From positions 1-23,459 of the IMG/VR virus record IMGVR_UViG_3300037672_001058: a stretch of DNA of 23,459 nt; one strand, 5' to 3'. Below are positions 6,319 to 7,646 of this stretch, in pieces. Each line of letters opens with the position of its first letter. The stretch's first letter is position 1. The notes under the pieces were generated by a model. It ran no database searches and had not been told where the DNA came from. It saw only the letters and a list, made by a program, of their open reading frames with translations. The position numbers and the translations under genes are program-made. Origin of the DNA: a virus.

Positions 6319-6720
6319 ATGTCGACCAGCGATCTAGTCCTAGAACTTAAAAATACAATCAAAGACCTAACACTTGAAAAGGAACACCTACATCAGGCAG
6401 TTTCTCAAAAAGAGAGTCGTAACAAGCAGATACTCATACGATTAGAAAATGCTACCAAAGACGTAGACCATGTCGGCAAACACGCCGCGGGCGTAAAACA
6501 AGAAAACGAGGAACTAAAACTTAAGGTCGCAACACTAAAAGCAAAACTGGAAACCACGGAAGAAGTGTTAAAACTAGCAAAAGAAAAACTTAAAGATTTT
6601 GAGCCGGATAAGGAAGTAGAATTGACTGACGAGGATGTTTCCAATATTGAAGAATCAGAAGAACCGGAATTAAAGTCAGTACTATCAGAAAAATATAACA
6701 AAGTCGACGACGAAGAATAA
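6319..6720 (+). CDS. Coiled-coil protein of unknown function
   Basis: I do not recognise this 133-aa protein. Residues 1-95 are Lys/Glu/Leu-rich and look like one long coiled coil (for example EELKLKVATLKAKLETTEEV at about 65-84). Residues 96-133 are acidic and probably disordered. There is no membrane segment, Cys motif or catalytic signature. The ATG at 6319 is preceded by an AT-rich CTTTAAATAAATGAACAT with no Shine-Dalgarno. It follows the gp26/gp51-like pair on the same strand after a 50-base gap holding an 18-bp palindrome, so it may have its own promoter. A chaperone or scaffold role in baseplate assembly is possible from context only. Confidence 0.7.
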   Translation: MSTSDLVLELKNTIKDLTLEKEHLHQAVSQKESRNKQILIRLENATKDVDHVGKHAAGVKQENEELKLKVATLKAKLETTEEVLKLAKEKLKDFEPDKEVELTDEDVSNIEESEEPELKSVLSEKYNKVDDEE

Positions 6721-6734
6721 TCATATCAACTAAA

Positions 6735-6752
6735 AGATGTCTAAAGACATCT
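6735..6752 (-). terminator. Weak terminator-like hairpin at end of candidate RNA
   Basis: On the minus strand AGATGTCT and AGACATCT form an 8-bp perfect stem around TT, followed by TTTAG. The T run is short and the stem only moderately GC-rich, so this may be a 3'-end stabilising hairpin rather than a strong terminator. On the plus strand the following bases are A-rich, which does not fit termination. Confidence 0.35.
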
Positions 6753-6830
6753 AAACTTTCGCTTACGCTCAGTTTACTTCTAATTTACGCAATCTCGAAA
6801 ATAACTTTTAACGCAACTTAACTGTTGCGT

Positions 6831-6857
6831 ACTCTGTGGCAGATGAGTAGTCATAAT
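6831..6857 (-). repeat. Imperfect direct repeat, copy A
   Basis: Shares CTGTGGC, a 6-7 base spacer and GTAGTCAT with copy B at 6888-6915; on the minus strand the shared blocks read ATGACTAC and GCCACAG. The copies are 57 bases apart and flank the GAAA-capped hairpin at 6857-6876. Confidence 0.65.
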
Positions 6858-6887
6858 TCGGCTATTTCTAGCCGAACCAACTTTGAA

Positions 6888-6915
6888 ACCCTGTGGCGAG
6901 TATCGTAGTCATTAT
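6888..6915 (-). repeat. Imperfect direct repeat, copy B
   Basis: Second copy of the block at 6831-6857. The conserved halves are identical while the spacer differs (AGATGA against GAGTATC), as expected if the conserved pieces are functional elements of an RNA or protein-binding boxes. Confidence 0.65.
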
Positions 6916-7005
6916 GTATCGTTGCTTTCGCCGGGCGGTTGTGCTGTACCCGTTAACTCATTCATCCAACGCGAGCCTACCAAACCCTTACACAATAGTA
7001 TTTGG

Positions 7006-7029
7006 TAAACCTGAGGTTTATCTTTTTCT
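7006..7029 (+). terminator. Possible plus-strand terminator
   Basis: TAAACC-TGA-GGTTTA forms a 6-bp perfect stem followed by TCTTTTTCT on the plus strand. It could end transcripts coming from the gp26/coiled-coil block. It lies within the candidate minus-strand RNA, where the same hairpin would also form, so its role is ambiguous. Confidence 0.35.
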
Positions 7030-7157
7030 AAGAGCCTCATCATTTTTTGCTGTTTGCATCATGGGATTCGCCTGTGTTGTTACACCGTAACTCCCTTATG
7101 TACGAAGATGCTATATCTGCCTGTGAGAAATTTTAATTTGCTGTGTTGCCTATCAGT

Positions 7158-7188
7158 AGTATATAACATAAACATTTTTTCAGGTCAA
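7158..7188 (-). promoter_or_regulatory. Host sigma-70-type promoter for candidate RNA
   Basis: On the minus strand TTGACC (7188-7183) is followed after 17 bases by TATATA (7165-7160), extending into TATACT. This is close to the TTGACA-N17-TATAAT consensus, with expected start near 7153. No minus-strand gene begins downstream of it for about 2 kb of leftward sequence, which supports a non-coding transcript. Confidence 0.5.
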
Positions 7189-7211
7189 CCTTTTTGGCTT
7201 TAAATAGTAAT

Positions 7212-7646
7212 ATGCAATGGACGTACAAAGAAGAAATAGTAAATGAAGTACCAGAAGGTGTAGTTGGGTTTGTATATCAGATCACAAATACAACCAACGG
7301 TAGGAAATATATTGGTAAAAAGTTAGCAGAGTTTAAAAAAGCAAGACCTCCGTTAAAGGGAAGAGTGAACAAACGTAGATACACAGTGGAATCAGATTGG
7401 AAAGAGTATTTTGGTTCAAGTGATGCTTTGACAGAAGATGTCCAAAAACTTGGTAAAGATAATTTTACACGAGAAATACTTTTTTATTGTAAATCCAGAG
7501 CAGAACTATCCTACATAGAAGCCAGAGAACAGTTTGCACGTAAAGTTCTTGAAACTGATGATTATTACAACGGTCATATCAGAGTGCGAATACACGGATC
7601 TGGAATTATCAGAGAGAAAAAAAGCAAAGGTATTCTCGAGTCGTAA
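7212..7646 (+). CDS. GIY-YIG nuclease-like protein
   Basis: A 144-aa single-domain protein. GFVYQITNTTNGRKYIGKK near the N-terminus is the GIY-(N10-11)-YIG signature of this nuclease superfamily. Further on come SDWKEYFGSS, FTREILFYCKSRAEL, and a downstream Glu and Asn (IEAREQF...YYN) at the places where the family has its metal-binding Glu and conserved Asn. Such compact proteins are common in marine T4-like phages; T4 relatives include the Seg homing endonucleases, but no C-terminal DNA-binding domain is visible here. I prefer ATG at 7212 over an in-frame TTG at 7194 because the former starts at the usual distance from the motif; neither has a clear ribosome site. It stands alone between the candidate RNA and a terminator. 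It could be a homing, repair or host-DNA-degrading nuclease. Confidence 0.8.
   Translation: MQWTYKEEIVNEVPEGVVGFVYQITNTTNGRKYIGKKLAEFKKARPPLKGRVNKRRYTVESDWKEYFGSSDALTEDVQKLGKDNFTREILFYCKSRAELSYIEAREQFARKVLETDDYYNGHIRVRIHGSGIIREKKSKGILES

Follow-up and report, generated by a model that had tools for sequence, protein, structure and literature searches.

With near certainty, the minus strand of a 473-nt gap in a viral contig encodes a structured RNA, probably as a stand-alone gene, and not a reading frame. The window analysed here is the whole 23,459-nt stretch of IMG/VR record IMGVR_UViG_3300037672_001058, and the gap (6721-7193) is flanked by orf6319, which ends at 6720, and by segE, which starts at 7194. 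This marine RNA, RNAs of cultured jumbo phages and the orphan motif Methylobacterium-1 (RF01712) very probably form a single superfamily, as judged from a shared order of elements, a shared pseudoknot and shared core sequence. An earlier note on this DNA had suggested that the minus strand of a T4-like phage may encode a structured RNA, lying in a GC-enriched gap of about 470 bases and framed by a sigma-70-like promoter and a terminal hairpin. These proposals hold: the homologues that were subsequently collected display conserved, covarying stems without a conserved reading frame, and the G+C content reaches 0.45 at positions 6800-6999, as compared with about 0.33-0.40 in the flanking genes.

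The first loci were fetched via the gp26-like baseplate protein, and blastn and nhmmer then located the element in about 43 sequences. The core pattern AAYGGGTACAGCACAACCGCCC, present in all 29 of the 29 gp26-selected homologues, occurs in at least 119 stretches of viral contigs, and each fetched stretch has the element. Dereplication below 97% yielded 78 near-full-length marine sequences that are 53-97% identical (median identity 72%). The nucleotide identity of the element is often 72-83% where the orf6319 protein is only about 40-45% identical. In bacterial and archaeal genome assemblies the core was found in only four contigs, all of them from MAGs, which we infer to be binned phage contigs. 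A blastn comparison of the window RNA and of a second marine RNA (L029) with named phages gave no real match.

Marine contigs with long enough flanks share a gene order in which gp20 and the gene for a 725-aa protein (minus strand) are followed by gp26, a gp51-like gene and orf6319 (plus), the RNA (minus), segE (plus), and gp46, gp47 and gp55 (minus). The RNA has the gp26 module on one side and the gp46-47-55 module on the other, in every case on the strand opposite to gp26 and segE, and it is kept in some contigs in which segE was not detected or lies further off.

The RNA is assigned to the minus strand because G-U pairs far exceed A-C mismatches in the helices of the homologues (372 versus 25), an asymmetry that rules out a plus-strand RNA. 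A protein-coding gap is likewise ruled out, since no open reading frame in it is conserved across the homologues and the open frames change both frame and strand from one homologue to the next. The presumptive 5' end was placed from the promoter and the presumptive 3' end from the terminal hairpin. The promoter hexamers seen in the window have counterparts elsewhere: TTGA[CT] is present in 58 of the 78 homologues, and a TATA-like hexamer follows 14-19 nt downstream in 53 of these 58, so that 53 of the 78 possess both a TTGAC-type -35 and a TATA-like -10 element. An automated promoter scan, which requires a T at position 6, left this site unlisted.

Table 1. Features of the RNA gene and its promoter, in window coordinates
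Feature	Position	Strand	Remarks
Sigma-70-like promoter	7160..7188	-	TTGACC 7188-7183, 17 nt, TATATA 7165-7160
Structured RNA gene	6735..7153	-	about 419 nt; found in 78 homologues (lowest nhmmer E 1e-138); covariation
AGGCA motif 1	7147..7151	-	near 5' end; conserved in most homologues
AGGCA motif 2	7118..7122	-	conserved
P2, enclosing P3	7056..7111	-	GCATC/GATGC, 7111-7107 with 7060-7056; compensatory pairs
P3	7096-7092 with 7066-7062	-	pair 7095-7063 above all null scores
P4 hairpin	7012..7039	-	7039-7035 with 7016-7012; 3/5 pairs changed on both sides
P5 long hairpin	6974..7011	-	directly after P4; 11/13 pairs changed on both sides
Pseudoknot strand 1 (P5 loop)	6989..6992	-	pairs with 6918-6915
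GUUG	6967..6970	-	proposed long-range pairing with CAAC 6941-6938; invariant in marine RNAs
Invariant core AACGGGTACAGCACAACCGCCC	6933..6954	-	hairpin B (6952-6949 with 6935-6932) and CAAC loop
Hairpin C	6924..6931	-	GC-GAAA-GC here; loop GNRA or UNCG among homologues; both pairs compensatory
Pseudoknot strand 2	6915..6918	-	just 5' of M1
M1 repeat	6891..6897	-	GCCACAG, in hairpin loop
P10 hairpin between M1 and M2	6854..6879	-	6873-6860 above all null scores; compensatory pairs
M2 repeat	6834..6840	-	GCCACAG, identical to M1
P12 hairpin	6753..6775	-	AAACT-GA-GC-GTAA-GC-GA-A-AGTTT; 3 pairs with compensatory changes
P13 terminal hairpin	6735..6752	-	weak terminator-like tail; 6747-6740 and 6746-6741 covary

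Single-sequence folding of the window only moderately beats shuffled sequences (z -2.64 for the minus strand, -2.23 for the plus strand), and the claim of a structured RNA could therefore not rest on the window alone. In an alignment of 29 sequences, 33 of the 74 consensus pairs show compensatory, both-sided changes. A phylogeny-aware null, for which substitutions were redistributed on a FastTree tree in 40 replicates and whose E-values are rough, leaves six pairs above all null scores, the P4 pair 7037-7014 among them; a further six have E-values of at most 0.05, and the pseudoknot pair 6990-6917 has an E-value of 0.125 in this null. All four pairs of the marine pseudoknot carry compensatory changes, with 99.3% of the cells paired, and 98.6% of the cells pair in the core alignment of 36 sequences, as opposed to 79.9% after shuffling (0/500). 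Covariation thus establishes the P5 pseudoknot in the marine RNAs themselves and the GUUG:CAAC pairing in their relatives.

Several structural details of the earlier note need to be adjusted. It had counted at least seven perfect inverted repeats; a repeat finder set to 8 nt or more returns only two (6735-6752 and 6857-6876), and the other stems are shorter. The positions that it gave for three GNRA-type loops on the minus strand are exact (GTAA 6766-6763, GAAA 6868-6865, GAAA 6929-6926), but their conservation is only partial: at 6929-6926 some homologues have a GNRA loop, and others have UACG or UCCG instead. What defines the RNA is a core made up of the pseudoknot and the invariant 22-nt segment, whereas some of the GNRA loops just cap their stems stably. 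The internal loop of the first hairpin, described as purine-rich, proved to be a tandem GA that is found as GA/GA in 74 of the 78 homologues.

By their gp26 and portal proteins, the nearest named relatives are jumbo phages, and relatives of the RNA, mostly unannotated and often present in multiple copies, were found in giant phages in culture whose hosts include Agrobacterium, Pseudomonas, E. coli and Klebsiella. The same place is occupied by unannotated or poorly annotated stretches in Phosso, PA5oct, CBB and XaC1 (about 0.8-1.5 kb), and likewise in 121Q, Munch and BF. According to a core model, CBB, XaC1, Munch, BF (with one further weak hit) and Hallingskeid have five copies apiece, 121Q has four, and RaK2 and K64-1 have three apiece. 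The repetition of the CBB stretch within genomes was also found by blastn, and the CBB copies occupy gaps of 660-790 nt between genes. Each marine contig searched has one copy only, and the multi-copy habit is therefore not universal. These RaK2/CBB/121Q-type RNAs (650-790 nt) resemble the marine RNA in locus and strand (most of them), in the P5-loop pseudoknot and the GUUG:CAAC pairing, in the succession of M1, hairpin and M2 with co-changing repeats, and in a tandem-GA hairpin followed by a terminal hairpin; they differ from it by a longer 5' domain, by their three to five copies per genome and by a sequence that diverges beyond the core. The promoter region of the CBB RNA has short matches at positions 288303, 301521 and 301678 of the CBB genome (NC_041878.1), and promoter sequence may be reused there.

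One of the three copies in PA5oct is annotated: ncRNA004 (NC_071039.1 246116-246734) is entered in RefSeq as a 'putative lncRNA', with 'annotation based on RNA-Seq data'. It ranks among the best matches of the marine model, has P4 in register and shares the two-hairpin end, and is unlike the marine RNA in its length (about 620 nt as annotated) and in its three genome copies. For the syntenic PA5oct copy (NC_071039.1 75748-77108), RefSeq puts four short hypothetical ORFs over the RNA that are likely false gene calls. Atu_ph07 possesses two copies whose invariant core (GGGTACAGGACAACCGCC) is almost identical to the marine one, and its locus contains GGGTACAGGACAACCGCC, a pair of AGGC motifs, P4 and the hairpins of the 3' end in the marine order; P4 recurs in PA5oct, in Atu_ph07 and in one RF01712 locus. 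Neither model matches the genome of Sinorhizobium phage Phosso; its unannotated syntenic gap of 1.0 kb (L180 11224-12237) folds with a z of -5.4 versus shuffled sequences and is possibly a further divergent relative.

The order common to the groups comprises the P5 hairpin, the loop pseudoknot, a pairing of the GUUG:CAAC type and a hairpin flanked by two similar repeats, whose joint change was computed for the marine RNAs and seen by eye in the jumbo-phage RNAs; every group forms the pseudoknot from a different pair of sequences. In 28 of the 29 jumbo copies the P5 loop is complementary to the pre-M1 segment over at least 7 nt, and this complementarity exceeds that obtained when each copy is given the partner of another (p 1e-4 by permutation). 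In two of these copies (L234 and L237) the longest match lies elsewhere, and AUUGUAU/AUACAAU is also present by eye; the corresponding pairing of Atu_ph07 is visible by eye as well. The GUUG:CAAC pairing covaries in the jumbo RNAs (GUUGC/GCAAC, GUUGU/ACAAC, GUUAC/GUAAC, UCUGC/GCAGA). The best matches of the marine model (R2) are to PA5oct copies (E 0.02 and 0.05), with a CBB copy in third place and aligned as expected (E 0.19), and run over the Atu_ph07 genome it gives a match at E 0.0023. Across the marine models, PA5oct copies come at or close to the top, in register. The three best matches of a sequence-profile search lie within these RNAs on the right strand, each of them weak (E 0.4-1.5), and the same search on the reversed sequence gave no match. 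The jumbo core model (R1) misses the marine and PA5oct copies and is therefore a within-group model only. It should be noted that the E-values of models across clades are modest (0.0012 to 0.2), and the case is carried more by position, order and covariation. These modest values, and the fact that the marine and CBB-type RNAs can hardly be aligned in overall sequence, would agree with unrelated RNAs that merely occupy similar loci. We regard this as improbable, given the almost letter-for-letter invariant core in the two Atu_ph07 copies with P4 in order, the silence of the reversed-sequence control, and the pseudoknot and twin repeats in the same order across the groups.

Methylobacterium-1 is a 103-nt orphan Rfam motif described by Weinberg et al. 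in 2010 (PMC2864571). Its model has no match in the window; the best marine homologue, L061, is matched in register over P4-P5 at 19.6 bits versus a gathering score of 40. Conversely, among five RF01712 loci in alphaproteobacterial genomes (L314 to L318), R2 matches one, L314, in register over P4-P5 (E 0.0012). The RF01712 model spans P4, P5 and the ACCGUAGUU that comes after them, to which CGCGUUG, as found in marine RNAs, or GACCGUUG is equivalent. The RF01712 model ends before the pseudoknot partner, unlike the marine RNA; beyond the model, the loci do contain a partner of the P5 loop that is re-paired between genomes (CAGTC/GACTG, CAATC/GATTG, ATTGCATC/GATGCAAT). L314 and L316 have CGCAGATT twice, flanking a hairpin, which is not clear in L315, L317 and L318. 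The loci also differ from the marine RNA in that they adjoin apparent tyrosine integrases and not T4-like core genes: frames beside four of them resemble such enzymes by eye, and the motifs therefore seem to reside within integrative elements or prophages. Methylobacterium-1 hence appears to be a fragment of a longer RNA that is a distant relative in the same superfamily, a link resting on few sequences since the swap control is uninformative for near-identical loci. A plasmid search with the RF01712 consensus returned nothing convincing. The earlier note had recognised no family, which stands insofar as the window has no match above threshold to any Rfam family, but not with regard to this apparent fragment.

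Rfam searches at gathering and permissive thresholds gave nothing above threshold in the window, in four marine homologues (L061, L029, L217, L226) or in six jumbo-phage loci, and no tRNA or tmRNA was found in the window. Neither Rfam models nor ARAGORN indicate a group I intron, a tmRNA or an RNase P RNA. A published large-scale prediction of phage RNAs may list fragments of the family. Our literature search found the family undescribed beyond RF01712 and the PA5oct annotation; the PA5oct RNA-seq paper lay outside its reach.

With moderate confidence, we favour as the best overall explanation a pseudoknot-locked RNA gene of the superfamily whose product would be a trans-acting scaffold with twin contact sites. 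A host-type RNA polymerase would start at the minus-strand promoter and make an RNA of about 420 nt that would end at the terminal hairpin. The product folds into a compact core locked by the pseudoknot, consisting of P4 and P5, with the P5 loop pairing to the pre-M1 segment and GUUG pairing to the CAAC in the hairpin B loop. Beside this core, the RNA presents M1 and M2, two copies of the same 7-nt sequence flanking P10, which may serve as twin contact sites for one partner, whose nature is a guess. More tentatively, the RNA may act in trans at an early stage of infection and form the scaffold for a particle made of RNA and protein or of RNA only. It is equally tentative to view the superfamily as an RNA machine of an undescribed type in which a trans partner docks on two identical loops, and which would extend from T4-like phages of the sea to jumbo phages in culture and to the integrative elements that marine bacteria carry. 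The RNA probably matters to infection, considering its fixed place in many ocean phages and its presence in up to five copies in giant phages. The tie to the 2010 orphan motif merges several puzzles into one question, and this question is now testable because relatives exist in the cultured phages 121Q (E. coli), PA5oct (Pseudomonas) and Atu_ph07 (Agrobacterium C58), which opens an overlooked RNA family of large phages to the laboratory.

The marine RNA might instead be an RNA-only homo-oligomer or cage, functionally of the GOLLD/ROOL/OLE sort. GOLLD and ROOL are likewise large, pseudoknotted, phage-encoded RNAs of unknown function (PMC12286853); the marine RNA also stands alone without an obligatory protein neighbour, ornate RNAs of this sort form multimers (PMC12286853), and the twin loops could serve as intersubunit contacts. 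The marine RNA is not a relative of GOLLD or ROOL, which the earlier note had cited as precedents: the GOLLD, ROOL and OLE models have no match at gathering score in the window or the six jumbo-phage loci, the tRNA-island neighbourhood typical of GOLLD and ROOL is missing from the tRNA-free window, and the marine RNA is smaller and of another architecture. At 420 nt it is also small for a cage, and we consider such an assembly rather unlikely.

The scaffold that we favour draws on the behaviour of the twin repeats. Within marine RNAs, M1 equals M2 at 6.94 of 7 positions versus 5.39 when permuted, a permutation that ignores phylogeny, and the single pair 6891-6834 has an E-value of 0.1 in the tree-based null; the 7-mer itself differs from phage to phage. 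No segment complementary to M1 or M2 was found in cis, which leads us to reject pairing within the RNA. We infer that both share one trans partner, and their joint change is proposed to arise because this partner contacts both. A pair of identical, exposed 7-mers whose sequence changes from one phage to another could also be the seeds of a trans-acting regulatory RNA that pairs with phage mRNAs. This is highly doubtful, as complements of each phage's own 7-mer are not enriched near gene starts in six phage genomes (0-2 sites) and the conservation of the core is far above the needs of a seed carrier.

An invariant, partly unpaired 22-nt core adjoining a pseudoknot would suit the active site of a ribozyme, a reading we think quite unlikely for an RNA that matches no known ribozyme family, has no cleavage or splicing context and does not lie inside a gene. 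A cis element (a leader, a 3' UTR or a replication-origin transcript), as the constant position in genomes of the marine clade and of many jumbo phages might indicate, is similarly implausible in view of the RNA's own terminal hairpin, the lack of a minus-strand gene directly after it, the dispersal of three to five copies over unrelated sites of jumbo genomes and the integrase-like neighbours of the RF01712 relatives.

Some observations concern the neighbouring genes. segE (7194-7646) is a SegE-type GIY-YIG gene, at whose place the jumbo relatives have a resolvase (endonuclease VII or RusA-like); the label of PHROG 447 for the SegE-type family, 'NAD synthetase', looks misannotated. A late-promoter-like element, GGCTTTAAATA (7194-7212, plus strand), is conserved ahead of segE in most homologues. 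Downstream of the portal gene, positions 335-949 of the window weakly resemble a family of viral sialyltransferases (phrog_4603, E 6e-6).
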